In this document: positions 36,048 to 57,458 of the stretch, in pieces
Position numbering within the stretch: the first letter of the stretch is position 1
Layout of the letters: each line of letters starts with the position of its first letter
From: Ignavibacteriales bacterium
GTDB lineage: Bacteria > Bacteroidota > Ignavibacteria > Ignavibacteriales > Melioribacteraceae
Assembly: GCA_020061355.1 (NCBI GenBank)
Contig: JAGUYK010000027.1
Span: forward strand, 1-61,958
Length of the DNA stretch: 61,958 nucleotides
Direction: 5' to 3'
Made by a program: the position numbers and the translations under genes
Notes under the pieces: generated by a model
Databases searched by the model: none
What the model saw: the letters and a program-made list of their open reading frames with translations, nothing else
What the model was told of the DNA's origin: nothing

Positions 36048-37199
36048 TCATAGAGCTCCGGTTCCATCTTTAATTGTGCATATATAGATCTCCGGAGTTT
36101 TATTATATCTACTTTTATAAGAACTTATTATTGCATTCTCAAAATCGTTTACAAAGCTGTCCTGAACAAGATTAATCGTGCAGCCGCCGAATCCTCCTCC
36201 CATCATTCTTGATCCTAATACACCATTCTGCTTTGAAGCTGCATCCACTAAAAAGTCGAGTTCCGGACAGCTTACTTCGTATAAATCTCTTAATCCCTCG
36301 TGGGATTGATACATTCTATTTCCAAACGACACAAAATCATCCCTGTCTAAATCCTCGCATCCTTTAAGTAACCTTTCGTTTTCCTCAATAACATATTTGC
36401 ACCTATCCCATACTTTAGGCGGAAACTCTAATTCGTGTAACTTGATAATATCCCATTCAACATCACGCAAGCTTTTAATGTGCGAATGGTATTGTTGCAA
36501 AATTCTTACACCATCCTCGCATTGTGCCCTTCGTGTATTGTATTCGGATGAAGCGAGTGAATGGCTGACCATCGTATTGCACAGGACAATTTTAAGTTCT
36601 TCATTTTCAAAGGGGTGGTACTCGTATCCTAAAGTGCGGCAATCAATTTTCAATACTTTCTTTGCTGAACCGAATATATTTATATATTGATCCATTATTC
36701 CGCAATTAACTCCTACAAATTCATTTTCGGATCGCTGGGCAAGTTTAACGAGCTCCAGCTTCTCTATTCCCAATTCAAAAATATAATTAAGTGAAAACGC
36801 TAAGCCCGCTTCTATAGCAGCGGATGATGATAAACCCGCACCAATTGGAATATCGCCTCCAAATACACAGTTAAAGCCTTTTATGTTATGACCTAGTTTT
36901 TGTATCTGATCTACTACTCCGAGCAGATAGTTTGCCCAGTTTTTTCTCTGATGATTAATGCTTGATACTGCCATTTGAACAGTATCATTCAGATCAAATG
37001 AATTCAAGTAACAGATATTATCAGTACGGGGTGAGGTTGCAAAGTAAATTGATTTGTCAATTGCCGCTGGAAGTACAAAACCCATGTTATAATCTGTATG
37101 CTCGCCTATCAAATTTACACGTCCGGGCGATCGAACTATTAGCGGAGTTTCATTAAATACTTCTTTGAATTTTTTTTCTATTTTATCAGCATAAATCAT
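36048..37199 (-). CDS. galK: galactokinase
   Basis: 383 residues, normal length. GHMP kinase motifs: galactose motif RSPGRVNLIGEHTDYN at the N-terminus, ATP loop PIGAGLSSSAAIEAGLA, and C-terminal GGGFGGCTINLV. Phosphorylates galactose at C1 in the Leloir pathway. GAGGTG precedes the ATG. It lies 21 bp after xdhC, so it is co-directional with and possibly read through from the Mo-hydroxylase genes. The aldose-epimerase-like gene is at the far side of the island. Confidence 0.96.
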   Translation of the reverse strand: MIYADKIEKKFKEVFNETPLIVRSPGRVNLIGEHTDYNMGFVLPAAIDKSIYFATSPRTDNICYLNSFDLNDTVQMAVSSINHQRKNWANYLLGVVDQIQKLGHNIKGFNCVFGGDIPIGAGLSSSAAIEAGLAFSLNYIFELGIEKLELVKLAQRSENEFVGVNCGIMDQYINIFGSAKKVLKIDCRTLGYEYHPFENEELKIVLCNTMVSHSLASSEYNTRRAQCEDGVRILQQYHSHIKSLRDVEWDIIKLHELEFPPKVWDRCKYVIEENERLLKGCEDLDRDDFVSFGNRMYQSHEGLRDLYEVSCPELDFLVDAASKQNGVLGSRMMGGGFGGCTINLVQDSFVNDFENAIISSYKSRYNKTPEIYICTIKDGTGAL

Positions 37200-37220
37200 T
37201 TGTTCACCTCAAAACTTTTC

Positions 37221-38180
37221 TTAAGAGTTTTTTACTTTAATAATCTGCGCCGCTATGCTAACAGCGATTTCTTCAACTGTGTTACTGTTTATATTCAATC
37301 CGATTGGTGCATTTACTTTTTTAAATAATGACTGTTTAACACCCTCCTCTTTCAACTCGCTAAAAATTCTTTTTAATTTCGCTTCGCTTCCCATTAGTCC
37401 AATGTACTTAAGTTTTTTACCAATGATTTGTTTAAGTGCTATTTTATCTGTCGGCAATGCAGAAGTCACAATTGCTATATAAGAATACTCTCCTTCCTCG
37501 ATAAAACCGCCTATTTCACCAAAGGAGGTAATGATTATTTCATCAGCAGAATTATTCTCTTTAATCGTTTGAACATCTGCTCTATCATCAAAAACAATCA
37601 CGTGGAATCCGAGCAATTCCATCTGTCGTGACATTGCCAATCCTACATGCCCGCCGCCGATAATATAGATTGTATCGCGTACTCCAACATTCTCATCATA
37701 CCTCCAATTATTCTCTGCAACAAAGCGGTATTTAAGATGCATATCGTTTTTCTTATCCGGTTCGATGTTAAATCCGTCAGGCGAAAGAACTAACACAGCA
37801 GATTCCTTTTTCTCGAATGAATGAATAATTGCTTCAACATTTTTCAAATCGGATTTATCGAGCAAATATGTAAAATTGGTTTGTATTCCCTGACATACAA
37901 GTCCCGATTGTAACTTTCTTACCTTCTTGCTGTGATACAATTTCCTGTGAAGTTGAATTTTCTTTTTTGATTTTAATAATCTTTCACACTCGTTCAACAA
38001 ATCATATTCCATTTGTCCACCGCCAATAGTACCGACAAATTTATTGTCTTTAGTAATAGCAATTTTAAAACCGGCTTTACCAGGTGAGCTTCCTTTTGAT
38101 TCCAAAACTGCTGTCAGAATTACCGGATTATTGCTTAGCAAATTCTTTCTAACAAACTCCCACATTTTCAAATCTTTCAT
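37221..38180 (-). CDS. xdhC: XdhC/CoxI-family molybdenum cofactor maturation protein
   Basis: 319 residues. N-terminal XdhC/CoxI domain (ILTAVLESKGSSPGKAGFKI, FVGTIGGGQMEYDLL), a Cys-containing segment (LVCQGIQTNF), then a Rossmann XdhC_C domain (YIIGGGHVGLAMSRQMELLG). XdhC proteins bind molybdopterin cofactor, help sulfurate it and insert it into xanthine-dehydrogenase-type enzymes. Here it serves the two Mo hydroxylases of the island. It follows mocA by 12 bp. In selenium-dependent systems a related protein (YqeB) exists; this one is shorter and more like ordinary XdhC. Confidence 0.9.
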   Translation of the reverse strand: MKDLKMWEFVRKNLLSNNPVILTAVLESKGSSPGKAGFKIAITKDNKFVGTIGGGQMEYDLLNECERLLKSKKKIQLHRKLYHSKKVRKLQSGLVCQGIQTNFTYLLDKSDLKNVEAIIHSFEKKESAVLVLSPDGFNIEPDKKNDMHLKYRFVAENNWRYDENVGVRDTIYIIGGGHVGLAMSRQMELLGFHVIVFDDRADVQTIKENNSADEIIITSFGEIGGFIEEGEYSYIAIVTSALPTDKIALKQIIGKKLKYIGLMGSEAKLKRIFSELKEEGVKQSLFKKVNAPIGLNINSNTVEEIAVSIAAQIIKVKNS

Positions 38181-38192
38181 TTCCGGTTTCCT

Positions 38193-38765
38193 TTAGATTA
38201 ACTTATCAAAATCTTCTTTCGTATTAATATTGCTAAGAATTTGAGGATAATTACACTCCCATATAAACTTTTTGATATCTGGATTAGAGCCTACATCTTT
38301 TAAAGATCGTTCATCGCTTTCACCAAGTATTATTTTATAAATTGATTGCCCCAGAAGAATCGGATGACCTTTCACAAAATTATATTCTGGTTGAATCCAG
38401 TTATAATGATCACTTATTTGTTCAACAAATTCCTGATAGAAAATTTGGGGGAGCGAGGGTTGATCTACAAAGTGATACAACGTCCAATCTGAATCATAAA
38501 TTTCACTTAATCCCTTCTTCAAAGAAGTGAACATCCCTTTCCGATAATTTTCGTTGAACACAAATTTTATTCGATTTGATTTTTCAACAGACTCTTCTAA
38601 TAAACTTCTATTATGCCCGGCAACAATTACAACCTCATCACAAACACTCCGTAATTTTTCTGTTATTACTAGAATTAGAGGCTTATCATTGATTTTCAGA
38701 ATTGGTTTGAATGAATGCATTCTTCCCGAAAAACCGGCTGCAAGGATAAGTCCGCTGATTTTCAT
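38193..38765 (-). CDS. mocA: MocA-type molybdopterin nucleotidyltransferase
   Basis: 190 residues. MobA/MocA nucleotidyltransferase signature LILAAGFSGRMHSFKPIL (LAAG..RM...K) and acidic metal site FVDQPSLP. This family adds CMP (MocA) or GMP (MobA) to molybdopterin; xanthine-dehydrogenase-type enzymes use the CMP form, and context beside xdhC points to that. The start overlaps the upstream PLP-enzyme stop by 4 bp (ATGA), showing tight coupling. Confidence 0.9.
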   Translation of the reverse strand: MKISGLILAAGFSGRMHSFKPILKINDKPLILVITEKLRSVCDEVVIVAGHNRSLLEESVEKSNRIKFVFNENYRKGMFTSLKKGLSEIYDSDWTLYHFVDQPSLPQIFYQEFVEQISDHYNWIQPEYNFVKGHPILLGQSIYKIILGESDERSLKDVGSNPDIKKFIWECNYPQILSNINTKEDFDKLI

Positions 38766-40012
38766 TTCACCTGAAAAATATCTTTTAGCTGGTCATTGGT
38801 ACATATTTCCGGTTTCGCAGACCACTTCATGATAGCAGCGGTGTCTTTCAATCCGTTTCCGGTTAGCATAATCATTACTCGTGCTTTGCTAGAAACTCGA
38901 ATTGATTGAAGAAATTTTTTGAATCCGGCATAAGCAGCCGCACATGATGGTTCTATTAAGAGTCCTGTGGTTTTAGAAATGAAACATTGTGCATCCAGTA
39001 TTTCATCATCACTTATAGCCAGAGCAGTTCCATCCGATTTTTTAATAGCATCTACCGCCATATATAAGTTACGGGGTGCTGATGCAGAGATACTATCCGC
39101 AATAGTTGAAGCACTCTTAAATTCAAACCCCCCTTTTTCAAGATATCTTACCAAAGCATTGCTTCCTTTGGCTTGCACACCAATGAGTTTCGGATATTTT
39201 TTTATCCACCCAAGTTTCTTCAAATCATAGAATCCTTTGAACAGCCCGGAGATTATCACTCCATCTCCAACGGGTACAAAAATATAATCAGGAAGTTTTC
39301 CCTGTAATTGAAGAAACATATCGAATGCGGCAGATTTTTTACCTTCAATTGTTAGTGGGTTATAAGCAGTATTTCTATTATAGATATTCTTTGCTTTGGA
39401 AATTTCCAGACAGAGATCGAATGCATCATCATAACTTCCTTTAACCAGATAGATATTTGCGCCGTAGGACTGAATTTGGATTCGCTTGGCTTCAGGTATT
39501 GCCGTCGGGACAAAAATATGCGATTTGATTCCTACTCTTGCACATATACCGGCAAGCGATGACCCGGCATTACCGGTTGAGGCTGCTGATATTTCTTTAA
39601 TGCCAAGTTCTAATGCTTTCAACGCGACAAGTGAGCTTGCACGGTCTTTGTATGATAATGTTGGATTTCTAGTATCATCAAAAAAATGAAGTCTTCTTCC
39701 ATCAATCTCATATTCAAGAATAGGATTCTGATTCAATTGTAAACGCGATAATACTTTTTCGGACGGATATTCTTTGATGGGCCATAGAAACGGATAATTC
39801 CAAAACTTTCCGGGTACTAATCGTAAAAATTTCTCTTTAGAATATTTCTTCTTTAACTTCTTATAATCATACTCAACTGTTAGAACACCATTAAGTGGTT
39901 TGTTCCTTTCGACTTTTCCGCAAGCGGGGCAGAGATAAATAAAATTATCTTCAATCTGTTGTGCAGTGTACTGACCACCGCAATCGAAACATTTGTAGAA
40001 ATAATTTGTCAT
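38762..40012 (-). CDS. threonine-synthase-like PLP enzyme with N-terminal zinc ribbon
   Basis: 416 residues. The zinc ribbon (CFDCGGQ, CPACGK) is followed by a fold-type II PLP domain: the PLP lysine is in TLSYKDRASS (about residue 122), with STGNAGSSLAG as the phosphate-side loop and LTGNGLKD near the end. Family members make threonine, but the position between ygeW and mocA in a purine island argues for another amino acid substrate, for example an amino-propionate derived from ring opening (inference). It could stand in for YgeX. A repeat element separates it from ygeW. Confidence 0.82.
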   Translation of the reverse strand: MTNYFYKCFDCGGQYTAQQIEDNFIYLCPACGKVERNKPLNGVLTVEYDYKKLKKKYSKEKFLRLVPGKFWNYPFLWPIKEYPSEKVLSRLQLNQNPILEYEIDGRRLHFFDDTRNPTLSYKDRASSLVALKALELGIKEISAASTGNAGSSLAGICARVGIKSHIFVPTAIPEAKRIQIQSYGANIYLVKGSYDDAFDLCLEISKAKNIYNRNTAYNPLTIEGKKSAAFDMFLQLQGKLPDYIFVPVGDGVIISGLFKGFYDLKKLGWIKKYPKLIGVQAKGSNALVRYLEKGGFEFKSASTIADSISASAPRNLYMAVDAIKKSDGTALAISDDEILDAQCFISKTTGLLIEPSCAAAYAGFKKFLQSIRVSSKARVMIMLTGNGLKDTAAIMKWSAKPEICTNDQLKDIFQVK

Positions 40013-40087: not shown

Positions 40088-41098
40088 TCACATTGTTAAA
40101 CCCATAATTGCTTTGGCAGTGTGGAGCCGGTTTTCTGCTTCATCAAATACAATAGAAATATTCGGGTCATCCAGAATTTCATCTGTTACTTCATTACCTC
40201 TGTCAGCTGGAAGAGCGTGCATAAGTTTAACATTCTTATCGGTAAGTTTAATTTTCTTATTGTCACAGATCCAATTTTTATGTTTCTCCAGATTCGATTT
40301 CATTTCTTTCTTGCACTCGTCTTCATGAGAGAGAAAATATTCTTCATCATAATAACCGAATCCACCCCAGTTTTTAGGCACAACTATTTGTGCCCCTTCA
40401 AACGCTTCGTCCATATCGTTTGTAAACCTCAGACTGCCTCCGCCTTCTTTCGCATTCTCATGAGCTTTCTCTACAATATTTTTACTCAACGGAAATTCCT
40501 TAGGATGAGCAACAGTCACGTCAATTCCATAGCGAGGGAATAATAGTATTTGTGTTTGCGGAACACTCAACGGTTTTGAATGCGTTGTAGCATAAGCCCA
40601 GGATACGGTTACCTTTAATCCTTTTGTGTTTCTGCCTAAATGCTCGAAAATTGTCATCAAGTCTGCAAGTCCCTGGAAAGGATGATAAACGTCATCTTGA
40701 AGAGACATAACCGGCTTTCTTGAATTTGCAGCTAGTTCGTTCAAATACTTGTTACCGATTCCGTAGAAACAGTTTCGGCACGCAATACCGTGACCCATAC
40801 GGCTCAAGATTATAGCAGTATCCTTAGCAACTTCGCCATGGGTTATCTGCATTTTATCGGGTGTTAAATCGTGCGCATGTCCGCCAAGCTGTGTCATGCC
40901 GGCTTCCATCGAATTGCGGGTTCGGGTTGATTGTTCGAAGAACATCATGAAGAGAGTTTTGTGAGGTAGCCATAGTGTCGGCTCTTCGACATAAAATTTT
41001 TTCTTTAATTCGAATGATGTATCAAAAACAATATCAAGTTCTTCTTTAGTCCAATCGTCTTCAGTTAAAAAGTGTTTACCTTTAAATCTTGACTCCAT
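40088..41098 (-). CDS. ygeW: YgeW-type knotted carbamoyltransferase
   Basis: 336 residues. Carbamoyl-phosphate motif STRTRNS (after MMFFEQ), GGHAHDL in the 80s-loop region, HPFQGLADL (HPxQ) and a C-terminal LMHALPADRGNEV. This is the YgeW branch of aspartate/ornithine carbamoyltransferases; it acts neither on aspartate nor on ornithine. In the purine island it probably runs in reverse, splitting a ureido (carbamoyl-amino) intermediate to give carbamoyl phosphate. No carbamate kinase gene is in the window. E. coli YgeW is somewhat longer. Confidence 0.92.
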   Translation of the reverse strand: MESRFKGKHFLTEDDWTKEELDIVFDTSFELKKKFYVEEPTLWLPHKTLFMMFFEQSTRTRNSMEAGMTQLGGHAHDLTPDKMQITHGEVAKDTAIILSRMGHGIACRNCFYGIGNKYLNELAANSRKPVMSLQDDVYHPFQGLADLMTIFEHLGRNTKGLKVTVSWAYATTHSKPLSVPQTQILLFPRYGIDVTVAHPKEFPLSKNIVEKAHENAKEGGGSLRFTNDMDEAFEGAQIVVPKNWGGFGYYDEEYFLSHEDECKKEMKSNLEKHKNWICDNKKIKLTDKNVKLMHALPADRGNEVTDEILDDPNISIVFDEAENRLHTAKAIMGLTM

Positions 41099-41115: not shown

Positions 41116-41191
41116 ATAGAACGCTGATGACACGGATTAGACAGATCGCCGCGGATTTAAATTTCAGAGATCCAATTAATCATTGTTCTAT
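41116..41191. repeat. short element with ATAGAAC terminal inverted repeats (copy A)
   Basis: Begins ATAGAACGCTGAT and ends GTTCTAT. It fills the gap between ygeY and ygeW, and its right end includes the ygeY stop codon. It shares ATAGAACGCYGAT with the element at 46043. Confidence 0.55.
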
Positions 41192-42381
41192 TTCTTTAAT
41201 AGTTCAAACGGGAATAGTGAATAAAACTTTGTTGCCTTCAACAAATCGTTCAGCAATATTTCTTCTTTCGATGAGTGTGCAAGTTCTTCTTTTCCCGGCG
41301 CAAAACCAATTGTTGGGATTCCAAAATGTCCGGCAGTAGCAACTCCGTTAGTTGAAAAACTCCACGCTCCGCTTTTTGCTTTTCCGGTTGCCGCTTTAGA
41401 AGTTTTCATTGCAGCATCAACAAGCGGATGTTTCTCATCATAAAACCATGTCGGGAAATAAGCCTCTTGTGAAAAGCGAGCCCCTTTCCAGCTTACACCT
41501 TCAACATTCGGAATAGAAATCTTTGCATAGCTTTTATGTTTTTTGACTATCGCCTTCAGTTCTTTAATAACACTATTTTTATTTTCACCAATTGTCATTC
41601 TTCGATCGATATGAATCTGGCAGAAATCGGAAACAGAACACATTGAAGGAGCTTTAGAAGTAATATTGCTTACTGTAATTGATCCTTTTCCGAGCGGCCA
41701 CTTCGGTTTCAATTTCTTATCGAGTTTTTCAATATCAGAAACGATTGGCATCATTTTATATATAGCATTAATTCCTTTCTGATTATGTGCGCCGTGAGCA
41801 GATTTACCGGTTGCAGTAATTTTCAGTTCCATTCTTCCGCGCTGCCCGCGGTAAACTTTCAAATCTGTTGGTTCACCCAACAAAACATAGTCGGGTTTAA
41901 TCCCTTCATTCTGGATAATATGGTAAAGTGGATAACCGTCAGCATCTTCTTCTAATGTCGATCCAACGACATAAAGTGTAAACGGGAAGTCGTTACCGTA
42001 TAATTGCTTTAACACTTTACCGGCGATCAGGAAACCGGCCATAGCAGGTTTTTCATCAACAGCCCCGCGCCCATATATTTTTCCGTTTTCAATCACTCCA
42101 GCAAACGGCGGGTGCGCCCAACTTTCTGTCTCGGTTACTTTAACAGTATCAATATGGGCATCGTACATAATTTTGATCGGTCCATTGCCAATGCGCCCGA
42201 TTGCATTACCAAATGAATCGTGATAAGCTTCATCGAATCCATATTCTTTCATTTTAGAAACGATAAACTCAACAATTTCTTTTTCGTCGCCGCTGTAGCT
42301 TTTTATCTGAACCAGCTTTTGAATGAGCGAAAACAAATTTTCCCTTTCCGCTTCAACTGCACTAAATAATTTTTCTTTCAT
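41188..42381 (-). CDS. ygeY: YgeY-family hydrolase (M20 peptidase fold)
   Basis: 397 residues from the ATG at 42381; the frame is open to a TTG at 42408, but the family N-terminus (MKEKLFSAVEAE) favours the ATG. M20 metal ligands: His/Asp in YDAHIDTV, Asp in GRGAVDEKP, Glu in STLEEDADG. The lid domain has GRMELKITATGKSAHGAH. YgeY is linked to selenium-dependent Mo-hydroxylase loci and probably hydrolyses an amide or ureido intermediate. Divergent from ygfK, with an 111-bp shared upstream region in which I see no clear operator. Confidence 0.92.
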   Translation of the reverse strand: MKEKLFSAVEAERENLFSLIQKLVQIKSYSGDEKEIVEFIVSKMKEYGFDEAYHDSFGNAIGRIGNGPIKIMYDAHIDTVKVTETESWAHPPFAGVIENGKIYGRGAVDEKPAMAGFLIAGKVLKQLYGNDFPFTLYVVGSTLEEDADGYPLYHIIQNEGIKPDYVLLGEPTDLKVYRGQRGRMELKITATGKSAHGAHNQKGINAIYKMMPIVSDIEKLDKKLKPKWPLGKGSITVSNITSKAPSMCSVSDFCQIHIDRRMTIGENKNSVIKELKAIVKKHKSYAKISIPNVEGVSWKGARFSQEAYFPTWFYDEKHPLVDAAMKTSKAATGKAKSGAWSFSTNGVATAGHFGIPTIGFAPGKEELAHSSKEEILLNDLLKATKFYSLFPFELLKK

Positions 42382-42492
42382 TTCTTCTATTCTCGCTAAA
42401 TGAATCAATAATAATGTGAATTATTTCAAAATTTTCTATTTATAAATTAATGATAATTAAAGATATTTACATCGGTTAACTGGAGCAATAGG

Positions 42493-45400
42493 ATGCCGGA
42501 AATAATGAAACCAATTTCTTTCTCAAGTCTGCTAAATCAGGTTTTATATGAGGGGAAAAAACACTCGAGCATTTTCGGGATAAAGAATGCCAACTTTTTC
42601 CAAAGTAAGAGCTATTCGGGAATAAACTTCCTTGACAGTTATCTTGAAACACCGATTGGTCCGGCAGCCGGTCCTCATACACAGATGACCCAAAATATAA
42701 TTGCTGCATATTTAACCGGAGGAAGATTTTTTGAATTAAAAACTGTTCAGAAAATTGACGAATTAAAAATAGATAGACCATGCATAGATGTTGAAGATGA
42801 AGGATATAATATTGAATGGTCGCAAGAACTGAAACTTGAGCAATCATACGACGAATATTTAAAGGCATGGATTCTTCTTCATTTTATTAAAAGGCAATAT
42901 TCTCTTTCTATTTCAAAGGAATCCGGATTTATTTTTAACATGAGTGTCGGTTACGATTTAGAAGGGATAAAAACTTTTCGAATGGACAAATTTATAGAAC
43001 AATTGAAGGATGCAAACAAATCGGATTCATTTTCAAAATACAAAAATTTATTGATTGAATTTGTTCGGCATAATTTTAATGATCACGTTGACTTTATTGA
43101 AGTCATAGAAAATATCTCTCCAAATATCTCCAATTCGGTTACACTTTCTACGATGCACGGTTGTCCGCCAAATGAAATCGAATCAATTGTAAAATATCTG
43201 ATAAAAGAGAAAGGTTTACATACTTACGTAAAGTTAAACCCTACACTTCTCGGTTATGATTTTGTAAAAGATACTCTAAATAAACTGGGATATAAAAAAG
43301 TAAATCTTGATGAACACTCTTTCGAAAATGATCTGCATTGGGATAATGCTTTAGCTATGCTAAGCCGCCTGAAAGTGTTTGCAAAAGAAAATGGGAAAAA
43401 GTTTGGTGTAAAACTTTCCAACACGCTTGCCGTAAAAAATAATAAGCAGCGAATGCCCGGCGAAGAGATGTATATGTCAGGACGTGCTTTATTCCCTTTG
43501 ACAATAAACCTGGCTTTAAAAATTGCAAATCAATTCAAAGGTGACATAAATATTTCTTTCTCCGGCGGTGCTTCAATCAATAATACAAAAGAGATTTTGG
43601 AAACCGGGATTTACCCCGTAACATTTGCTACCGAGCTTTTGAAGCCCGGAGGATACAACAGGCTTCTTCAAATTGCAGAATCAATTAATAAAGTAGATAT
43701 TGATTATTCTCCTTTTATCAATTTGAATAAGTTAAAATCGCTAGCCGATAAATCTTTGAGCGATCCGGTTTATTTGAAAGAAACAAGAACAGTTGATTCA
43801 ATAAAAATACGTGACAAACTTGAAACGTTTGATTGTTTTATTGCCCCATGTAAAGTTGCATGCCCAATTCATCAGGATGTTCCGGAATATATCCTGTTGG
43901 TTGGTGAAGGAAAGTATGAGGAAGCGTTGGAAGTTATAACGGATAAAAATCCTCTTCCGCATATTACTGGCTATGTATGCGATCACCAATGTATGTACCA
44001 CTGCACAAGGATTGATTACGATGAAACAGTCAAGATTCGCGATTTGAAAAAAGAAGCAGCCCTGAATGGTTTCGATAATTTCATAAAGGGTTTATCAACA
44101 TTCGCGATAAAAGAGAACAATATTAAAGTGGCAATAATTGGCGCCGGTCCTTCCGGCTTATCAGCCGCTTACTTTTTAGCAAAATCAGGATTTGATGTAA
44201 CAGTTTTTGAAAAGAATATGAATGCCGGAGGAATTGTACAGAACGTTTTGCCTCAATTCCGACTTCCCCAATCTGCCATTGATAACGATATAAAATTCAT
44301 AGAACAATTTGGCGTAAGATTTATTTTTGGTGTAGAGGAATCCTTTTCGATACTCAAACTTAAAGAAGAAGGTTACAAATACATTTATATAGCAATCGGG
44401 GCAGAGAAGTCGAATCAATTAAAGATTTCCTCAGATAAAGAAATTCTGAACGCAATAGATTTTCTTTGGAATTATCATCACGACTTGAACACTAGTTTAG
44501 GAGAAAATGTTGCGGTGATTGGCGGAGGAAACTCTGCAATGGACAGTGCTCGCGCTGCTATACGCTGCAAACATGTTGACAAAGTCTTTCTATTATATAG
44601 ACGGGCGAAAGAATTTATGCCGGCTGACCACGAAGAATTTGAAGCGGCTTTAACAGATGGAGTGATATTCAAAGAGTTGTTGCTTCCTTACGATTTTACA
44701 AACGGCAAACTAATATGTCAAAAGATGGAACTCGCTGAATCCGGTACAGACGGCAGAAGAAATGTCGTTCCGATTAACAATGCTTATGAAGAATTTAAGA
44801 TTGACACACTAATCTCCGCCATCGGAGAAAATGTCGATTGCGATATTCTTGAGTTCAATAAAATAAAAATTTTCAAGAATAAAGCTGATGTAAATCCTCA
44901 GACAAATGAAACAAATATTGAAAATGTTTTTATCGGAGGAGATGCGTTAAAAGGTCCGGCGACAGTTGTTGAAGCCATTGCGGATGGAAGAAAAGCTGCT
45001 GATTCGATTATCAAAAAAGAAAGGTTGAATTATCCTTCTGTCGATCCTCGAAAGTACTCTAAGATTAAGACAGATGATATAAGGATGGCAAAAGGAAAAG
45101 TCGGCTGGCATAATGTTGATATGAAAGAAGAAGCATTACGCTGCTTGAGCTGCAACGAAATATGTAATAAATGTGTTGATGTCTGTCCGAACCGTGCTAA
45201 TGTAGAAATTAAAATCGATCACTTTCTTTTTAAAGACCCAAATCAAATTCTACATATTGATTCACTTTGTAATGAATGCGGCAATTGCGAAACATTCTGT
45301 CCGCATCAAGGTGCACCTTATAAAGATAAATTTACTTTATTCTCCGCACTCACTGATTTTAATTCAAGCAAAAATGATGGTTTTGTTCTCTTTAACAATA

Positions 45401-45564
45401 ATGGTTATGAAAAAATAAAAATTAGAACTGGCGGCATTGAGAGCGAAACAACAAGAGAGCAAATAACCAATTTGCAGCCGGAGAAATGTTCGGATACCCA
45501 TTCTGCTTTAATGGTACATTATACTTTGCAGAATTATCCTTATTTATTTTCTGAAAAGGTGTGA
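42493..45564 (+). CDS. ygfK: YgfK-type Fe-S flavoprotein oxidoreductase (putative selenate reductase subunit)
   Basis: 1023 residues. The N-terminal dihydroorotate/dihydropyrimidine-dehydrogenase-like barrel (IGPAAGPHTQMTQNI) is followed by a glutamate-synthase-small-subunit-type Fe-S region (APCKVACPIHQDVPEYI, CDHQCMYHC, about 448-515). FAD (VAIIGAGPSGLSAA, about 547) and NAD(P)H (VAVIGGGNSAMDSA, about 675) sites come next. Two [4Fe-4S] clusters lie near the end (CLSCNEICNKCVDVCP; CNECGNCETFCP). Its electron partner in purine loci is unresolved; it may accept or donate electrons for the Mo enzymes. The only plus-strand gene of the island; converges on the 2Fe-2S gene with a 3-bp gap. Confidence 0.93.
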   Translation: MPEIMKPISFSSLLNQVLYEGKKHSSIFGIKNANFFQSKSYSGINFLDSYLETPIGPAAGPHTQMTQNIIAAYLTGGRFFELKTVQKIDELKIDRPCIDVEDEGYNIEWSQELKLEQSYDEYLKAWILLHFIKRQYSLSISKESGFIFNMSVGYDLEGIKTFRMDKFIEQLKDANKSDSFSKYKNLLIEFVRHNFNDHVDFIEVIENISPNISNSVTLSTMHGCPPNEIESIVKYLIKEKGLHTYVKLNPTLLGYDFVKDTLNKLGYKKVNLDEHSFENDLHWDNALAMLSRLKVFAKENGKKFGVKLSNTLAVKNNKQRMPGEEMYMSGRALFPLTINLALKIANQFKGDINISFSGGASINNTKEILETGIYPVTFATELLKPGGYNRLLQIAESINKVDIDYSPFINLNKLKSLADKSLSDPVYLKETRTVDSIKIRDKLETFDCFIAPCKVACPIHQDVPEYILLVGEGKYEEALEVITDKNPLPHITGYVCDHQCMYHCTRIDYDETVKIRDLKKEAALNGFDNFIKGLSTFAIKENNIKVAIIGAGPSGLSAAYFLAKSGFDVTVFEKNMNAGGIVQNVLPQFRLPQSAIDNDIKFIEQFGVRFIFGVEESFSILKLKEEGYKYIYIAIGAEKSNQLKISSDKEILNAIDFLWNYHHDLNTSLGENVAVIGGGNSAMDSARAAIRCKHVDKVFLLYRRAKEFMPADHEEFEAALTDGVIFKELLLPYDFTNGKLICQKMELAESGTDGRRNVVPINNAYEEFKIDTLISAIGENVDCDILEFNKIKIFKNKADVNPQTNETNIENVFIGGDALKGPATVVEAIADGRKAADSIIKKERLNYPSVDPRKYSKIKTDDIRMAKGKVGWHNVDMKEEALRCLSCNEICNKCVDVCPNRANVEIKIDHFLFKDPNQILHIDSLCNECGNCETFCPHQGAPYKDKFTLFSALTDFNSSKNDGFVLFNNNGYEKIKIRTGGIESETTREQITNLQPEKCSDTHSALMVHYTLQNYPYLFSEKV

Positions 45565-46038: not shown

Positions 46039-46042
46039 AACT

Positions 46043-46100
46043 AATAGAACACAGATAATTATGATCAATCATAATAGATCATAAAGATCGGCGTTCTATT
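46043..46100. repeat. short element with AATAGAAC terminal inverted repeats (copy B)
   Basis: 58 bp from AATAGAACAC to GCGTTCTATT (9 of 10 terminal bases paired), with internal ATGATC/GATCAT. Read on the minus strand it starts AATAGAACGCCGAT, matching copy A. It fills the gap between the FAD and 2Fe-2S genes and supplies the last codons (IERRSL) of the FAD-subunit gene. Confidence 0.6.
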
Positions 46101-50700: not shown

Positions 50701-52140
50701 TCACCCTACCTTTACAAAATTTCCATAACTAAACAAATCGTGTAAAGTTTCTTTCGAATCAAATATTTTCTTTCCCCTCAAGAATGTTTGCTTTACAACA
50801 GCATCAAGTCTTAATCCTTCAAATGGAGTAAACTTCCCTTTGCTGTACATATTCATCGCTTCAATTTTCTGATTGTCCCATAAATCAATAATAGAGAAAT
50901 CAGCATCAAGCCCGGCATGTAATTTCCCCTTATTATTTATTTTAAAATATGACGCAATATTGGTTGACAAAAGATTAATAGTTCTTTCAAGAGTAAGTTT
51001 TCCTTTCAGAAAACCTTCACTGAATAGAAATGGGAGTCTGTGCTCAACGCCCGGAATTCCACCATAGACTTCCCAAAAGTTTTGTGATGACTTTTCATTT
51101 TCCGGATTACACCCCGCGTGATCAGTTACAACAAACGAAATTGATCCGTCATTTAATCCATTCCACAGAGCTTCAATATCCTTTTCACATTTTACGGGAG
51201 GAGCTGTTTTCAAATAGTTTCTAATTTTTTCATTCTCAAAATCTTTCTGTGTGAAATAGAGATAGTGAGGGCATGTCTCCGTGGTAATATGAAGTCTTGA
51301 CGCATGGGCTTTTTTAATTTGCTCTAAACCCATTTTGGAACTAAGGTGAACGACGTGAATTTTGCAATTCACTTTCCGCGCAATTGAAATTAGTTTATCA
51401 ACTGCAACAGCTTCAGAGCGTGCATCACGGCTATCACAATAAGCTTTCCAATCATTTCTATTTGCATTTTTAAATTTCATTTCACGCGTTTGGACAAGTT
51501 CTTTATCTTCTGCATGAACAGCTATCGGTTTCCCGGTTTTTTCAATTATGCGGGCTGCCGCTTCCATTTGACGTTCGCTAAGATCTGAATATGTTTCCAT
51601 TCCTGAAATCATGTAGACTTTAAATCCGGCAACACCGGATTCTGAAAGCTCCAATATATTTTTTCCGATCTCGGTTTCATCAAAATTCCTGCCTGAGATT
51701 CCACCCCAAAAGCCATAATCTATTTTACTTCTGCCTTTTAGAGAGGCAAGCTTTGTATTCATATTTTCTAATGAGGTAACGGGTGGAATCGATGTGCATG
51801 GCATATCAATAACCATGGTAACACCTCCGGCTGCAGCTGCTTTAGAGCCGTGTTCAAAATCTTCCCTGAATTCAAAACCGGGTGTGTCAAAGTGAACATG
51901 TGAATCAATTGCGCCGGGAATTACGAGATTAAAATTTTTTTCTTCGTTTTCAGAAACGACCTGATTCAAGATAGAATCACGCCGCTCTCTAATTTTCAAA
52001 TCTTTCCAATCATATTGATGATCTGTTTTAGGCTTAACTTCTATAATCTTTGAATCATAGATCAAATCACAAAGCTGAAGTTTGTTCTCTCCGGAAGAAA
52101 CAAGAACATTAGACATTATATTTTGTTCTTCATTATCCAT
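50701..52140 (-). CDS. cyclic amidohydrolase (hydantoinase/allantoinase type, YgeZ/HyuA-like)
   Basis: 479 residues. Binuclear metal site: HxH in IDSHVHFDTPG, carboxylated Lys in GVAGFKVYMIS, His in AVHAEDKELV, His in IHVVHLSSKMG, Asp in VVTDHAGCNP. The last motif is the allantoinase/dihydroorotase type. It hydrolyses a cyclic ureide or imide, so it fits ring opening of a purine-derived five- or six-membered ring. The start is at an ATG; another ATG eight codons in is possible. A repeat lies just upstream. Confidence 0.92.
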   Translation of the reverse strand: MDNEEQNIMSNVLVSSGENKLQLCDLIYDSKIIEVKPKTDHQYDWKDLKIRERRDSILNQVVSENEEKNFNLVIPGAIDSHVHFDTPGFEFREDFEHGSKAAAAGGVTMVIDMPCTSIPPVTSLENMNTKLASLKGRSKIDYGFWGGISGRNFDETEIGKNILELSESGVAGFKVYMISGMETYSDLSERQMEAAARIIEKTGKPIAVHAEDKELVQTREMKFKNANRNDWKAYCDSRDARSEAVAVDKLISIARKVNCKIHVVHLSSKMGLEQIKKAHASRLHITTETCPHYLYFTQKDFENEKIRNYLKTAPPVKCEKDIEALWNGLNDGSISFVVTDHAGCNPENEKSSQNFWEVYGGIPGVEHRLPFLFSEGFLKGKLTLERTINLLSTNIASYFKINNKGKLHAGLDADFSIIDLWDNQKIEAMNMYSKGKFTPFEGLRLDAVVKQTFLRGKKIFDSKETLHDLFSYGNFVKVG

Positions 52141-52195: not shown

Positions 52196-53659
52196 CTATT
52201 CCACTTCAACCTGTTTATTGAAATCTTCTATTAATTTATTCCATAAAGGAACAACGGAAAATCTTTCCTGCCAATAGTTGTCATCATACCACTGAGCATT
52301 AAGTTCTTCTACATCTTTACCTTGCTGTTCGACCCATGTAAAATATTTCAGATTGTGAATTGCTTTCTTGTCGTGATAATTAAGTTCTTTGAAATAATCG
52401 ATACTCTGATGTTTGATTATAGACGTCCAATCAATTTCCGCCTGAAGTTCGGAATATTTTCCCCAACTATCATTCATCTCTTTAAGACGTGAGTTATAAA
52501 GATCAACAGAATCCGTAAATATTGTAAAGATTATATCATTTTCGTTCATTTCGTAATATTTAGCAAGCTTAATTGCTGCGAGCAAATTGCAGTTACATGA
52601 AATTCCGAGTTCGTTTAACTTTTCAATTTTACTTTCATCAACCCCCTGTTTTGCCAGCCACTTTTTACCCGAAGGTTCATTAAATAATCTTAATAGCCTT
52701 AGTGTTTGCTCATCATCAATTGCCGCAACACAATCTGTATTCTTTACATTATGAATCCATGGAACATGTTTATCGCCGATTCCTTCAATACGGTGTCCGC
52801 CGAATCCGTTCATTAAAAGGGTTGGACATTGCAATGCTTCCGAAGCAACAACTTTAACATGCGGAAACTTTGTCCTCAAGTAATCACCGGCACCAATTGT
52901 TCCGGCGGAACCTGTTGCACTTACATATCCGCTAAGCCGGCTCTTATTATTTTTTAACTGATCAAAAAGTTTTTCAATAGTATATCCGGTAACTTCATAA
53001 TGCCATATCGGGTTACCGAATTGGTCGAACTGATTGAAAACTAAATATTCATCGCTTTGTGCTTCAAGCTCATGACACTTATCATAAATTTCTTTCACAT
53101 TGCTTTCGCATCCATGTGTTGCATAAATCTCCGCACCCATTTCTTTAAGCCAGTCAAATCTCTCACGGCTCATTTCTTCCGGTAATATTGCAACTGCATG
53201 AACAGCGAGTAAAACTGAATTAAAAGCACCGCCGCGACAATAATTTCCGGTTGAAGGCCAAACGGCTTTGTGATACTCAGGATTAAATCTACCGGTAATA
53301 AGATATGGTGCTAAACATCCATAAGTTGCACCGACTTTGTGCGTACCCGTAGGAAAATATCTTCCTACAAGTCCAATAATACGAGCTTTTACGCCTGTAA
53401 TTTCGTTTGGTATTTCTAAATAATTAATTCCGCCAATACCTCCACTACCGGGATCATTACACCAGTTGATGCGGAAAAGGTTTAATGGATTTGTCTCTTG
53501 CAAATCGATCGTTTTTAATTTCTCTTGAATCTTATCAGGGATTGTTTCAGGCTTTTTTAATTGCTCAAAGGTTGGTAAAATAATTTTTTTTTCTTTACAG
53601 CGGCTAATAGTTTTTTTCAGATAGTTGCTATTTTCAACTTCCCATTTCCAAACATTCAT
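52196..53659 (-). CDS. fold-type II PLP-dependent enzyme of unknown substrate
   Basis: 487 residues. The PLP lysine is in GTHKVGATYGC (about residue 107); the phosphate/carboxylate loop is STGNYCRGGAFN, with ATGSAGTIGAG as the second loop. It resembles cysteine synthase/cystathionine-beta-synthase-type lyases but is longer, with a 100-residue C-terminal extension (YFTWVEQQGKDVEELNAQWY). Set between xdhB and the hydantoinase, it may carry out the ammonia-lyase or beta-elimination step that YgeX performs in E. coli-type loci; this is inference. Predicted cytoplasmic, no signal peptide. Confidence 0.83.
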   Translation of the reverse strand: MNVWKWEVENSNYLKKTISRCKEKKIILPTFEQLKKPETIPDKIQEKLKTIDLQETNPLNLFRINWCNDPGSGGIGGINYLEIPNEITGVKARIIGLVGRYFPTGTHKVGATYGCLAPYLITGRFNPEYHKAVWPSTGNYCRGGAFNSVLLAVHAVAILPEEMSRERFDWLKEMGAEIYATHGCESNVKEIYDKCHELEAQSDEYLVFNQFDQFGNPIWHYEVTGYTIEKLFDQLKNNKSRLSGYVSATGSAGTIGAGDYLRTKFPHVKVVASEALQCPTLLMNGFGGHRIEGIGDKHVPWIHNVKNTDCVAAIDDEQTLRLLRLFNEPSGKKWLAKQGVDESKIEKLNELGISCNCNLLAAIKLAKYYEMNENDIIFTIFTDSVDLYNSRLKEMNDSWGKYSELQAEIDWTSIIKHQSIDYFKELNYHDKKAIHNLKYFTWVEQQGKDVEELNAQWYDDNYWQERFSVVPLWNKLIEDFNKQVEVE

Positions 53660-53739
53660 TAAAATTCCTCATAAGAAATTCAGTAATACATAACAAATTT
53701 ACCTAAAACGATTAAGAGTTGAAACTTCTTTAGAGAAAA

Positions 53740-55998
53740 TCAGTCGTTTGAATGGAGCCACATCAGAACTTTTTCGTTCGTTACCGGTGCATTGTATATA
53801 ATTGATTTAGCTGGTCTAAAGGACTTCATTGCATTTATGATTGCAAAATATGCACCTATGCCGTACATGAATGGCGGCTCTCCAATCGCTTTTGATTGAA
53901 ATGGTCCGTATGGATTTGGAACGTCTTCCAGAAAATGAACGACTAATTCTTTTGGCGCGAAATGTATATCTGGAACTTTGTATGTTGATAGCGCGTCGGT
54001 TAAAAGTTTTCCTTCATCATTATAAATAACTTCTTCAAGTGTCATCCATCCCAGTCCTTGGACAATCCCACCCTCAGCCTGTCCGCGATCTGTAACAGGA
54101 TGAATACTTTTTCCGAAATCATGAACTGCTTTAACAGAGTCAATTACGTAAGTTCCTCTTAGACAATCAACAGTAGCCTCAACCAATGCAGTGCCGAAAA
54201 CGTGATATGCGAAAGCATTACCTTTCATTTTTTCTCTGTCAAAAAATATATTGGGTGTTGCATGATGTGCTTGGGCAGAAAGACTAACGCGCTTTATATA
54301 TGCAATGTTAATTAGTTTAATCCAGTCGAACTCTGTTTTCGAATTATTGAGATAAACAAGTTCATCTTTTATCTTGATCTGTGAAGAGTTATCAGTGTGC
54401 AGAACTTCAGCAGCGACTTTTATAAGTCGTTCTAAAATCAAATTGCATGCATCCATAGCCGCAAATCCGTTAAGATCAGTCCCTTTGCTTGCTGCTGTAG
54501 GAGAAGTATTTGCAACACGGGATGTGTTCGTCGTATCTATAAGAATTCTTTCCGGTCTAATCGAAAAAATTTGAGATGCAATTGACATTATTTTTGCATT
54601 AACACCCTGACCCATTTCAACAGCGGCAGTGCTTATTCTTAGGCTTCCATCTGTATAAACATGTACGAGTGCACTCGCCTGATTCAAAAAAGTAGTTGTG
54701 AAAGAAATACCGAAACAGACCGGCATTACAGCAAGTCCTTTCTTTACAAGTTTATTCTCTTCGTTAAACTTTTTCACTCTTAAATTCTGTGAAGAGAAAT
54801 CAAATCTTTTTTCTGCTTCTTCAAAACATTTTACTGCGCGGCAGTTCTCGGTTTTTTGACCGAAAGGAAATTCATCTCCCTCTTTCAATAAATTTTTTTT
54901 CTGAATAAATGAGGGCTCAACACCCATTACTTCCGCTGCTTTATGAATTGCAGATTCAATTACAAACATTGCCTGCGGTCCGCCAAATCCGCGGAATGCC
55001 GTAAACGGAGGAAGATTTGTTCTGCAGCAATACGCAGTTGCTTTTACATTAGGAATGAAATAACTATTTGTAGAATGAAAAAGAGTCCGTTCAAGAATTG
55101 CGGTTGAAAGATCGGCGGATGCACCTGCGTTCTGATAATACCATACTTGATAAGCGAGGATTTTTCCATCTTTGCTCAAACCTATTTTGAAATCGGATGA
55201 ATACGGATGGCGCTTGCCTGTCATTCGCATATCTTCCTGGCGAGGTAAAATAATTTTAACAGGTCTGTTTAATTTCTTCGCAGCAAGTGCAGCCATCACT
55301 GCCCATGCTGTTGCCTGATCTTCCTTACCTCCAAAACCGCCGCCGAGACGCGGAACATCAACCTCAACTTTATTCATTGGTATATTCAAAACGCGTGCAG
55401 CTGTTTTTTGAACTGCGGTTGGTCCTTGTGTTGAAGAAATGATTCTTATTCCTTCCCCTTCCAATGGAATAGCTAAAGCTCCCTGCGTTTCAAGATATAG
55501 ATGTTCCTGTGCGCCGGATTCAACTTTACCATCTATAATATAATCGCATTGATGCCAGGCAGAATCAATATTTCCAATTGAAAATATTTTAGGGGGTATA
55601 ATCAATTCCCCTTTTTCGAATGCTTCACGAGGATCAAGAATTGGTTTTAGTTTTTCGAATTCACATTTTATTGCCTTAGCCCCTTTGTGTCCAGAGACTC
55701 TATCTTCAGCAACAACAATTGCAATCGGTTGACCGGCAAAATGAACCTCTTTACTTGCAAAAAGTTCTTCGTCTAAAATTATACCGCCAATTTGATTTTC
55801 CCCGGGTATGTCAGCTGCAGTAACTACAGAATGTACTCCATTTACTTTAAGAGCACTCTCGAAACTAAGTTTAAGTATTTTACCGTGTGCAATCGGGGAA
55901 TAATATACATATCCGAACAAAGTTCCTTCCGGAGCAGTTAAATCGTCAACAAATTTGGATTCACCGCGTACATGCTGAATTGAATCGTAACTTCTCAT
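53740..55998 (-). CDS. xdhB: xanthine dehydrogenase, molybdopterin-binding subunit
   Basis: 752 residues. Ald_Xan_dh_C N-domain (GESKFVDDLTAPEGTLFGYV), Mo-pterin loop GGGFGGKEDQ (about 220), substrate-side Phe/Arg region FTAFRGFGGPQAMF, GQGVNAKIM and the catalytic Glu in KAIGEPPFM (about 705). The Arg/Glu pattern fits purine-type rather than aldehyde substrates. Oxidises hypoxanthine/xanthine, or runs toward urate reduction in anaerobes. Its ATG overlaps the xdhA stop by 4 bp, so the two subunits are coupled. Confidence 0.95.
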   Translation of the reverse strand: MRSYDSIQHVRGESKFVDDLTAPEGTLFGYVYYSPIAHGKILKLSFESALKVNGVHSVVTAADIPGENQIGGIILDEELFASKEVHFAGQPIAIVVAEDRVSGHKGAKAIKCEFEKLKPILDPREAFEKGELIIPPKIFSIGNIDSAWHQCDYIIDGKVESGAQEHLYLETQGALAIPLEGEGIRIISSTQGPTAVQKTAARVLNIPMNKVEVDVPRLGGGFGGKEDQATAWAVMAALAAKKLNRPVKIILPRQEDMRMTGKRHPYSSDFKIGLSKDGKILAYQVWYYQNAGASADLSTAILERTLFHSTNSYFIPNVKATAYCCRTNLPPFTAFRGFGGPQAMFVIESAIHKAAEVMGVEPSFIQKKNLLKEGDEFPFGQKTENCRAVKCFEEAEKRFDFSSQNLRVKKFNEENKLVKKGLAVMPVCFGISFTTTFLNQASALVHVYTDGSLRISTAAVEMGQGVNAKIMSIASQIFSIRPERILIDTTNTSRVANTSPTAASKGTDLNGFAAMDACNLILERLIKVAAEVLHTDNSSQIKIKDELVYLNNSKTEFDWIKLINIAYIKRVSLSAQAHHATPNIFFDREKMKGNAFAYHVFGTALVEATVDCLRGTYVIDSVKAVHDFGKSIHPVTDRGQAEGGIVQGLGWMTLEEVIYNDEGKLLTDALSTYKVPDIHFAPKELVVHFLEDVPNPYGPFQSKAIGEPPFMYGIGAYFAIINAMKSFRPAKSIIYNAPVTNEKVLMWLHSND

Positions 55999-57422
55999 AC
56001 CAGCACCTCTGCATCAATTGATTCAGGGAACAGTTTAATAAAATGTGCTTTGATCAGCTGACAAAGAAGCAAAGTTTTATATTCTTTTGTTCCGCGAGCA
56101 TCCGTAATTGGTGAAATTTCTGACTTAACAATAACAATAGCATCATTGATTGTTGAAGGGGTAACTTCCTTGCCGGTCAAAAATTCACAAGTCGATTTCA
56201 GGAAGAGCGGGATTGGTGAAACACCTCCCGCAGAAAGACTAAGCTGTTTAATTTTTCCTTTATAAATTTCGAGTAGTATCGAGGAGTTTACACTTGCAAT
56301 ATCTAAATATGTTCTTCTTGATACTTTTTCATAATTGAACAAGGCGCGTTTTGAAGGAATTGGTATCGAGATTTCCAGGACAATCTCATTAGTTTTTTTA
56401 TTTAAGGATTTATAACCTAAGTAAAATTCTTTTAGCGGTATAATCTTAATTCTACCTTTAAGGCGAAGATGGATATTCGCATTTAGAGCTATCAAAATAT
56501 TCGTCATATCACCTATTGGTGATGCATTAACAATATTGCCGGCAATAGTCGCCCTATTTCGAATTGGGAGCGAACCAAAAAGTTTTAGGTGTTCCTTCAA
56601 GTTCGGAAAATATTTAATTATTAGATGAGATTCTAAAAATTCCTCGATAGTTACCGCTCCTCCAACATCTATTCTGTTTTTTCTCTTCGAGATATTTTTT
56701 AATTCTCCATAATCGGAAACAAAATCAATATCCGTTTCAAGTAATGATTCCCATTTCTGAACATAAAGATCGGTTCCGCCCGATACAATATTTGTTTTAG
56801 TAACCTTCCCTTTTTTCTTTTTATCAATTTGTGTTCTTATATTTTTCAATCGTTTGGGTATATCTAGAAAGTATTTAGGAAGAAGATTTTTCTGAACGAG
56901 AAGATTTATTGGACCGGCTTTTGAAACATCATTGCTGCCCGTAAAGGTTATTATGTTTTCTATAGCACGTTTTATTCCAGCATAACCGGTACATCTGCAA
57001 ATATTCCCATCGAGAGCACTCACAGCATCTTCAATACAATAATTGCTGTGATTAATAAAATAATTCGTAAGCGAAACAACAAATCCCGGTGTACAGAAAC
57101 CGCATTGTGTTCCACCTTCATCAATCATCTGTAATTGGATATAATTAAGTTCGCTATTGTTCAAACCTTCAATTGATACGACATGTTTTCTATCAATGTC
57201 CGCAATTGGCAGCAAGCAGGAATTAATCGACTTGTATTTTACTTTTCCTTTTATCAACGAGCCAAGCATAATGGTGCATGCACCGCAATCACCTTCGCGG
57301 CACCCCTCTTTTGTGCCCGTAAGTTTTCTATGGTTACGCAGGAAATCTAAAACCGTTAAGGAAGGATTTATCTGAACCGAGACCAGCTCATTATTGCAAA
57401 GAAATGTAATTAGTTTTTCCAT
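55995..57422 (-). CDS. xdhA: xanthine dehydrogenase, Fe-S/FAD subunit
   Basis: 475 residues. Two [2Fe-2S] domains (GTKEGCREGDCGACTIML; TQCGFCTPGFVV and GNICRCTGYAG) are followed by a basic linker (about 165-205) and the FAD-binding domain (IVSGGTDLYVQK, LPIRNRATIAGNIVNASPIGD) and its C-terminal partner. Fused Fe-S plus FAD is the layout of classical bacterial XdhA. First gene of the minus-strand island. A perfect 10-7-10 dyad ends 10 bp upstream of the ATG, so control of the whole operon probably acts here. Confidence 0.95.
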   Translation of the reverse strand: MEKLITFLCNNELVSVQINPSLTVLDFLRNHRKLTGTKEGCREGDCGACTIMLGSLIKGKVKYKSINSCLLPIADIDRKHVVSIEGLNNSELNYIQLQMIDEGGTQCGFCTPGFVVSLTNYFINHSNYCIEDAVSALDGNICRCTGYAGIKRAIENIITFTGSNDVSKAGPINLLVQKNLLPKYFLDIPKRLKNIRTQIDKKKKGKVTKTNIVSGGTDLYVQKWESLLETDIDFVSDYGELKNISKRKNRIDVGGAVTIEEFLESHLIIKYFPNLKEHLKLFGSLPIRNRATIAGNIVNASPIGDMTNILIALNANIHLRLKGRIKIIPLKEFYLGYKSLNKKTNEIVLEISIPIPSKRALFNYEKVSRRTYLDIASVNSSILLEIYKGKIKQLSLSAGGVSPIPLFLKSTCEFLTGKEVTPSTINDAIVIVKSEISPITDARGTKEYKTLLLCQLIKAHFIKLFPESIDAEVLV

Positions 57423-57431
57423 GTTAACACT

Positions 57432-57458
57432 ATTGTACTAATGTGTGTTTAGTACAAT
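57432..57458 (-). promoter_or_regulatory. operator-like dyad directly upstream of xdhA
   Basis: Perfect inverted repeat ATTGTACTAA-N7-TTAGTACAAT, 10 bp upstream of the xdhA start codon. The form fits a dimeric repressor site (TetR/GntR type) or a leader hairpin that could cover the ribosome site. No matching regulator gene is in the window. Confidence 0.7.

Follow-up and report, generated by a model that had tools for sequence, protein, structure and literature searches.

A probable selenium-free variant of reductive uric acid degradation in a Melioribacteraceae genome

Contig JAGUYK010000027.1 of the Ignavibacteriales bacterium assembly GCA_020061355.1 (Melioribacteraceae), 61,958 nucleotides long and analysed over its whole length as the window, carries a purine-type gene island at 36048-57422 that encodes two separate molybdenum (Mo) hydroxylases. 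What do these two enzymes do, and to which route do they belong? A preliminary description, made from the sequence alone, had proposed anaerobic breakdown of purines or urate, and the gene set lends support to this idea, as it fits the published reductive pathway. In our view the island probably specifies reductive uric acid degradation in a form that does without selenium and in which distant enzymes have replaced several of the usual ones. As a variant of a known pathway it is well supported, and comprises a likely new lineage of urate reductase, a possible replacement of YgeX and a conserved pyridoxal phosphate (PLP) enzyme, PALP2.

Island layout and proposed pathway

Genes were identified from the list of open reading frames (ORFs) and from profile family scans of the window proteins (Pfam, and NCBIfam/TIGRFAM with their cut-offs). 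Both approaches verified the island genes (Table 1), including the two-subunit enzyme of xanthine dehydrogenase (XDH) type (53740-57422) and the three-gene Mo enzyme (45568-49362) of the preliminary description. All three Mo-hydroxylase Pfam domains are found in each Mo subunit with E < 1e-18, far beyond chance. The genes had been described as a single minus-strand run; instead, ygfK, in mid-island, is a plus-strand gene that is divergent from ygeY and convergent with the 2Fe-2S gene and divides the minus-strand genes into two runs (57422-45568 and 42408-36048). Outside ygfK, adjacent genes overlap by four bases or are separated by short gaps, which suggests that the minus-strand genes form two operons. 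The gap between ygeY and ygfK presumably serves as a shared promoter region, and this divergent pair is also present in relatives. The true start of the 2Fe-2S subunit gene may lie slightly downstream of the listed TTG. As for the gene names proposed earlier, SsnA-like, allantoinase/hydantoinase-like, YgeY and YgfK proteins are present, but the carbamoyltransferase misses the YgeW cut-off; the xdhC and mocA products are family relatives, both short of the equivalog cut-offs.

A reductive urate route was lately found in gut bacteria. As set out in parts of Li et al. 2025 (PMC12507026), XdhD-YgfM of the E. coli cluster converts urate to yanthine, after which YgfK, SsnA, HyuA, YgeW, YgeY and YgeX lead to pyruvate; a commentary by Percudani (PMC12990295) summarises this pathway together with Liu et al. 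2025. Every step has a candidate gene in the window; YgfK and YgeY exceed their family cut-offs. We propose that the two-subunit enzyme oxidises xanthine to urate, which the three-subunit enzyme, whose Mo subunit is here called MoL3, would reduce to 2,8-dioxopurine (yanthine). YgfK would then convert yanthine to its dihydro form, and SsnA and HyuA would open the two rings to give 2,3-diureidopropionate. The carbamoyltransferase would remove one carbamoyl group as carbamoyl phosphate, with ATP gained through a carbamate kinase encoded elsewhere, and YgeY would hydrolyse the second ureido group. Finally, PALP1 would take the place of YgeX as the lyase yielding pyruvate and ammonia. Every one of these reactions is deduced, the observations being gene identities, conservation, co-occurrence and swaps between relatives. 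The same order of steps is thus expected as in E. coli K-12 (xdhD-ygfM, ygfK, ssnA, hyuA, ygeW, yqeA, ygeY, ygeX), to whose proteins the window counterparts are 29-43% identical (Table 1). By contrast with E. coli, the island is without XdhD/YgfM, YgeX, YqeA and a purine permease, has MoL3, PALP1 and PALP2 instead, and is accompanied by no selD over the cut-off.

Table 1. Features of the island, with position in the window, strand and supporting matches
Feature	Position	Strand	Basis
XDH small subunit (2Fe-2S + FAD)	55995..57422	-	TIGR02963 364 bits (cut-off 467); Fer2, Fer2_2, FAD_binding_5, CO_deh_flav_C
XDH Mo subunit	53740..55998	-	TIGR02965 767 bits (cut-off 849.5)
PALP2, cysteine-synthase-like PLP enzyme	52196..53659	-	PF00291 56 bits
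Hydantoinase/allantoinase family, candidate for the HyuA step	50701..52140	-	AllB TIGR03178 358.9 bits (cut-off 357.85); 29% to E. coli K-12 HyuA
SsnA-like aminohydrolase	49359..50696	-	NF005540 366.9 bits (cut-off 444), top family; 34% to E. coli K-12 SsnA
MoL3, Mo subunit	46948..49362	-	XdhA-type model 461 bits (cut-off 780)
FAD subunit of MoL3 enzyme	46079..46951	-	FAD_binding_5, CO_deh_flav_C
2Fe-2S subunit of MoL3 enzyme	45568..46068	-	Fer2, Fer2_2; listed ORF start TTG
YgfK, candidate yanthine-dearomatising reductase	42493..45564	+	TIGR03315 1328.6 bits (cut-off 835.3); 43% to E. coli K-12 YgfK
Gap between divergent ygeY and ygfK, 84 bp (putative promoter region)	42409..42492		coordinates
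YgeY, M20 family hydrolase	41188..42408	-	NF009555 455 bits (cut-off 321); 41% to E. coli K-12 YgeY
Carbamoyltransferase, YgeW-like	40088..41098	-	OTCace_N/OTCace; STRTR motif; 34% to E. coli K-12 YgeW
PALP1, threonine-synthase-like PLP enzyme	38762..40012	-	PF00291 217 bits; TIGR00260 177 bits (cut-off 167)
MocA-like molybdopterin nucleotidyltransferase	38193..38765	-	TIGR03310 101 bits (cut-off 186); NTP_transf_3
XdhC-like Mo-enzyme maturation factor	37221..38180	-	XdhC_C, XdhC_CoxI
Galactokinase, end of minus-strand run	36048..37199	-	TIGR00131 348.7 bits (cut-off 226.65)

For the first Mo enzyme, the best solved relatives of the Mo subunit are xanthine oxidase/dehydrogenase (539 bits). Equivalents of Glu802, Arg880 and Glu1261 are conserved in all 15 rows of the XDH clade, the window protein included; here and below, E802, R880, F1009 and E1261 follow the bovine numbering. 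The window pair resembles Rhodobacter capsulatus XDH (1jro; 481 bits) in its active-site residues and, presumably, in the split into two subunits, and differs from it in falling below the TIGR02965/TIGR02963 cut-offs and in its setting within a reductive pathway.

The hydantoinase/allantoinase family member, which barely exceeds the AllB cut-off, would suit a catabolism of allantoin or hydantoin with accessory Mo enzymes. We regard this as highly improbable: in none of the 14 other genes of the runs is the best match to an allantoate or ureidoglycolate family, and we know of no place for YgfK and SsnA in the allantoin route.

A step yielding carbamoyl phosphate, as suggested earlier, is supported by the STRTR motif, shared with E. 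coli YgeW, and by a carbamate kinase gene on a different contig of the source genome, whose product exceeds its cut-off (382 bits against 358). The carbamoyltransferase scores 194 bits against the YgeW model (cut-off 453), and its two best-scoring solved relatives are 3q98 and 2yfk, which we take to be YgeW-type transcarbamylases. In many loci of the order this protein is 90-94% identical to that of the window, exceeding most of its neighbours. The idea that the carbamate kinase locus (contig C17) holds further genes of the pathway was rejected: of the seven neighbours scanned, five had Pfam hits (opine dehydrogenase, asparagine synthase, SIS/glutamine amidotransferase, NodU-type carbamoyltransferase and OTCase), none of them purine-linked, and two had none.

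The source genome (47 contigs, 99.88% complete) had been tentatively placed in the FCB group. Consistent with this, a YgfK search of genome contigs returned 33 loci, the nearest of which belong to Melioribacter, Stygiobacter and other Melioribacteraceae (72-80% identity), that is, to Ignavibacteriota within the FCB group. The island arrangement recurs in the loci of relatives, with part-by-part swaps. In two congeneric genomes (G010 and G046; loci L144 and L146) the place of ygfK is taken by a protein with DHO_dh and Fer4 domains, the Pfam type of UacX. Another genome of the order (G104, locus L145) encodes a true YgeW (654 bits, cut-off 453) in an operon with MoL3, PALP1, PALP2, YgeY and SsnA, and has an 827-aa FAD/DHO_dh protein in place of YgfK. 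Such swaps alter one or two steps and keep the rest of the set, and thereby support the step assignments. The Clostridioides difficile variant, described with UacX and UacY in parts of PMC12507026, is similar in that pathway steps are exchanged between unrelated enzymes, and the UacX-type protein at the ygfK position of L144 and L146 extends this likeness to the relatives. The window differs from C. difficile in having YgfK and the carbamoyltransferase; no UacY was seen in the island, to which the search for it was confined. A YhcG/DUF1016 nuclease gene lies inside the uricolytic operon beside the UacX-like gene (L144, 9886-10950; L146, 8837-9880).

The second molybdenum enzyme and the question of selenium

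The order was surveyed in 117 genomes (G-numbers). In addition, 105 stretches of loci (L-numbers) were annotated, many of which overlap or come from the same genome. The cut-off of the YgfK model is exceeded in 50 of the 117 genomes, where two classes were distinguished by judgement from the score distribution. True YgfK is assigned to 35 genomes: 31 that score at least 1190 bits (~1.2 to 1.4 bits per position of the model) and four (G026, G052, G080 and G092) with ygfK cut or split by contig ends (~1.4 to 1.5 bits per position). A second, YgfK-like class covers 20 genomes (~0.9-1.0 bits per position, ORFs mostly near 1090 aa) and includes a few fragments below the cut-off. Genomes G006, G012 and G053, whose match is limited to the N-terminal ~400 positions, belong to neither class. 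Proteins of the second class (~1090 aa; L074, L076, L077, L111, L112) share a run with XDH, an XdhC-like protein and a fused 2Fe-2S/Mo protein.

In a tree of Mo subunits (49 rows, one short row dropped and E. coli PaoC added), MoL3 forms a clade of 16 rows with a support of 100. It is separate from both the XDH clade and E. coli XdhD; the latter groups with an XdhD-like protein from locus L011. Rows that have MoL3 as their best window match at ~30% lie outside the MoL3 clade. A clustering with aldehyde or CO dehydrogenases had been named as an outcome that would refute the preliminary reading; the model scores favour xanthine dehydrogenases, and the aldehyde-type PaoC, a long branch in the tree, falls outside both clades, with CO dehydrogenases compared by model score only. 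MoL3 carries a GGSFGGKDD motif and retains the R880 and E1261 equivalents.

MoL3 was found in 27 of the 117 genomes (E up to 1e-150) and XdhD-like proteins in nine (E up to 1e-120), with no genome having both; the L011 XdhD-like query gave no XdhD in the source genome at E 1e-120. Among the true-YgfK genomes, MoL3 is present in 24/35, an XdhD-like protein in 9/35 and neither in 2/35, so that exactly one of the two occurs in 33. An independent case is at hand: the Salmonella enterica plasmid CP053580.1 (locus L143), which carries ygeW, ygeX (dpaL), ygeY, hydA, arcC, ygfK, ssnA, ygfT and a purine permease, has a single place matching MoL3, a fused Mo-FAD ORF of 1070 aa that falls in the MoL3 clade (support 100), shares 41% identity with MoL3 over 97% and has the GGSFGGKDD motif. 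The likeness of this locus to the window lies in the MoL3-clade Mo enzyme; the locus differs in the fusion of Mo and FAD parts, in its E. coli-type YgeW, YgeX and YqeA, and in the adjoining YgfT and formate dehydrogenase. The Salmonella enzyme had no match in 20,395 E. coli records (blastn, E 1e-50). The plasmid is conjugative, and its positions 4430-29884 in L143 hold the uricolytic gene set together with formate-linked urate genes.

From this distribution and the tree, MoL3 appears to occupy the place of XdhD in the pathway and is likely to represent a new lineage of urate reductase. Alternatively, both Mo enzymes could be oxidative purine hydroxylases, acting on hypoxanthine and xanthine or at C8 and C2/C6, with urate reduced by other means or not at all. 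The best model of MoL3 is indeed an XdhA-type xanthine dehydrogenase (461 bits), and the retained R880 and E1261 agree with such a role. However, the E802 position is Asp and the F1009 position Leu in 16/16 MoL3 rows, MoL3 never co-occurs with XdhD, the MoL3-clade enzyme is the sole MoL3 match of a Salmonella plasmid bearing a uricolytic locus, and no other candidate for a urate reductase is seen in the island. We therefore find two oxidative enzymes unlikely. The earlier suggestion that the two Mo enzymes act at different ring positions holds insofar as they would have different tasks, but the second is likely reductive (urate to yanthine) and would not perform a second hydroxylation.

The preliminary description had also linked the island to selenium-dependent Mo hydroxylases, in the sense of Haft and Self 2008 (PMC2276186). 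Indeed, ygfK and ygeY exceed the cut-offs of families whose names link them to selenium, and ssnA is best matched by another such family. Yet selD has only two matches in the source genome, both at ~31 bits (best 31.6, cut-off 125), on which ground a selenium link was rejected for this genome. In the order, selD is over the cut-off in 5/117 genomes and in 2/35 true-YgfK genomes (G048 and G052), so the cluster as a rule occurs without selenophosphate. Moreover, both Mo subunits score far under the cut-offs of the NCBIfam models for selenium-dependent Mo hydroxylases. The XdhC-like protein has no match to the YqeB model TIGR03309, the search for yqeB/yqeC having covered this protein and not the rest of the genome; it shares 31% identity with E. 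coli YqeB, a member of the XdhC-CoxI family, across 155 residues. A selenium-dependent enzyme in this island thus seems to us exceedingly improbable.

PLP enzymes and the end of the route

The PLP enzymes had been noted to differ from those of E. coli, and they do: PALP1 and PALP2 are in the island, and YgeX is missing from the source genome (best match 19.8 bits, cut-off 274). YgeX exceeds its cut-off in 5 of the 117 genomes, two of which are true-YgfK genomes (G050 and G052); in G050 it lies in a different neighbourhood (L114). By contrast with the 62 genomes of neither YgfK class, where PALP1 is found in 10 and PALP2 in 9, the true-YgfK genomes have PALP1 in 34/35 and PALP2 in 35/35, and the second class has them in 20/20 and 18/20, respectively. 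The enrichment of PALP1 and PALP2 in both classes versus neither gives Fisher p values of 8e-22 and 5e-21, not corrected for kinship. In other phyla, 16 genomes with a YgfK locus were searched (L026 left out), and PALP2 was present in 12 of them.

Among the annotated stretches, which include overlaps and repeated genomes, YgeX occurs in 9, PALP1 in 50 and both in none. One locus, L136, has PALP2, YgeX, YgeY and YgeW in a single run without PALP1, a gene content that suggests PALP1 as the stand-in for YgeX and another role for PALP2. It is thus possible that PALP1 replaces YgeX as the lyase. The converse, PALP2 as the replacement, was considered and weakened by its position beside YgeX in L136; its family-scan matches include no diaminopropionate ammonia-lyase model. 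PALP2 is a conserved extra enzyme that presumably works on the C3 amino acids in the last part of the route. PALP1 as the sole threonine synthase was rejected, with two other thrC-type genes over the cut-off in the genome.

The chemistry at the C3 end may differ from that of E. coli in another way, compatible with the proposed reductive pathway: PALP1 and PALP2 could act in succession, for example by exchange or racemisation followed by elimination, so that the exit would not be a single YgeX reaction and the intermediate may be a different one. The two are found together in 60 of the 117 genomes, one alone in 6 and neither in 51, counts that are uncorrected for kinship. They are adjacent in L116, L118 and L138, and in the Fretibacterium locus L135 (720-5870) a serine hydroxymethyltransferase gene lies between them, followed by a carbamoyltransferase gene. 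In L136, however, the pair is not obligatory. We hold successive action to be somewhat less than evenly probable.

Relatives of PALP2 (42-43% identity) are encoded on Rhizobium and Bosea plasmids (L106, L107). A TauE/SafE sulfite exporter and M20 hydrolases are encoded close by, as is RidA in the Bosea case, and this context weakly hints at beta-elimination. In two genomes one of the PLP enzymes is split into two ORFs by a frameshift or assembly error (PALP1 in G073, PALP2 in G018; L088 13394-14618, L090 17634-19149).

Counter-evidence, wider setting and flanking genes

Several observations weigh against a selenium-free reductive pathway of this composition. The SsnA-like protein, the carbamoyltransferase and both XDH subunits fall short of curated cut-offs, and no purine transporter was seen among the island genes in the ORF and family scans. 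Two YgfK genomes, G038 and G052, have neither MoL3 nor XdhD that we could find; in G038 ygfK is on a 6.3-kb contig, and in G052 the contig ends at the expected MoL3 position (L109, L110). Conversely, MoL3 occurs in G010, G046 and G104, none of which has a true YgfK. When mapped on the YgfK tree (31 genomes and E. coli), the distribution of MoL3 and XdhD requires two changes, at least one of them unavoidable, so that their mutual exclusion amounts to one or two swaps and not to 33 independent cases. Glu606 of XdhD, a modelled residue, is tied to yanthine formation in parts of PMC12507026. Its equivalent is conserved in the XdhD-like proteins of 9/9 genomes, but the Glu606 loop is missing in MoL3 and in the Salmonella MoL3-type enzyme, as it is in the window XDH and E. 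coli XdhA; the XdhD/MoL3 swap would thus involve two different lineages.

The assignment of PALP1 meets further objections. PALP1 and PALP2 are both present in each of the five genomes of the order that have YgeX, which means that PALP1 and YgeX do not exclude each other at the genome level. PALP1 lies above the threonine synthase cut-off, and in a profile alignment it has Thr at the position of YgeX Asp120, which we take to be the catalytic base of diaminopropionate ammonia-lyase. PALP2 also has Thr there, in a weak alignment (71.7% probability). As to selenium, selD is present in 2 of the 27 MoL3 genomes (G048 and G104), and the Salmonella locus encodes a YqeB-like protein (77% identity over 48% of E. 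coli YqeB); a selenium link may exist in these three cases. G052, where a contig end truncates ygfK, runs counter to the tally: selD and YgeX are present, and no MoL3 was found.

Whether the reductive route is ancient or a recent gut adaptation was left open in the commentary, with the latter favoured (PMC12990295). Several of the loci come from records titled groundwater, fen or mines and contain deeply diverged parts, which makes this question testable. We see it as evenly balanced whether environmental Ignavibacteriota possess an old, selenium-free uricolysis in which MoL3 is a urate dehydroxylase other than XdhD and PALP2 performs a step unmet in the E. coli and C. difficile studies. If so, reductive uricolysis would be widespread in the environment and built from interchangeable enzymes, and would not have arisen as an adaptation to the gut of recent date. 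Uricolytic strains could also profit from a urate reductase that needs no selenium. In a published survey of gene neighbourhoods (parts of PMC12507026), PF00291 served to score YgeX and PF00185 to score YgeW; these models also match PALP1, PALP2 and the window carbamoyltransferase, so such a survey would hide the swaps described here. Searches of the paper collection at our disposal gave no paper for Melioribacter with xanthine dehydrogenase and only a tuberculosis gut study for Ignavibacteri- with purine degradation, and a wider search gave nothing on the subject among the matches listed.

Window positions 30000-61958 gave no Rfam match to a purine or xanthine riboswitch (E up to 1). The galactokinase at the end of the second run, which the preliminary description did not name, is probably outside the pathway. 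Beyond the other end of the island, in the region 57802-60780, the gene at 57802-59463 belongs by its match to the general solute:sodium symporter family and is accompanied by an aldose-epimerase-like gene; the symporter would carry sugar. With these genes at one end and the galactokinase at the other, the purine island seems to sit inside a galactose operon. Flanks of galactokinase and symporter occur in no other of the annotated stretches, though many end too early, apart from those of the congener G040 (L093, L108), which has the same flanks, galactokinase included, and a symporter 90% identical to that of the window.

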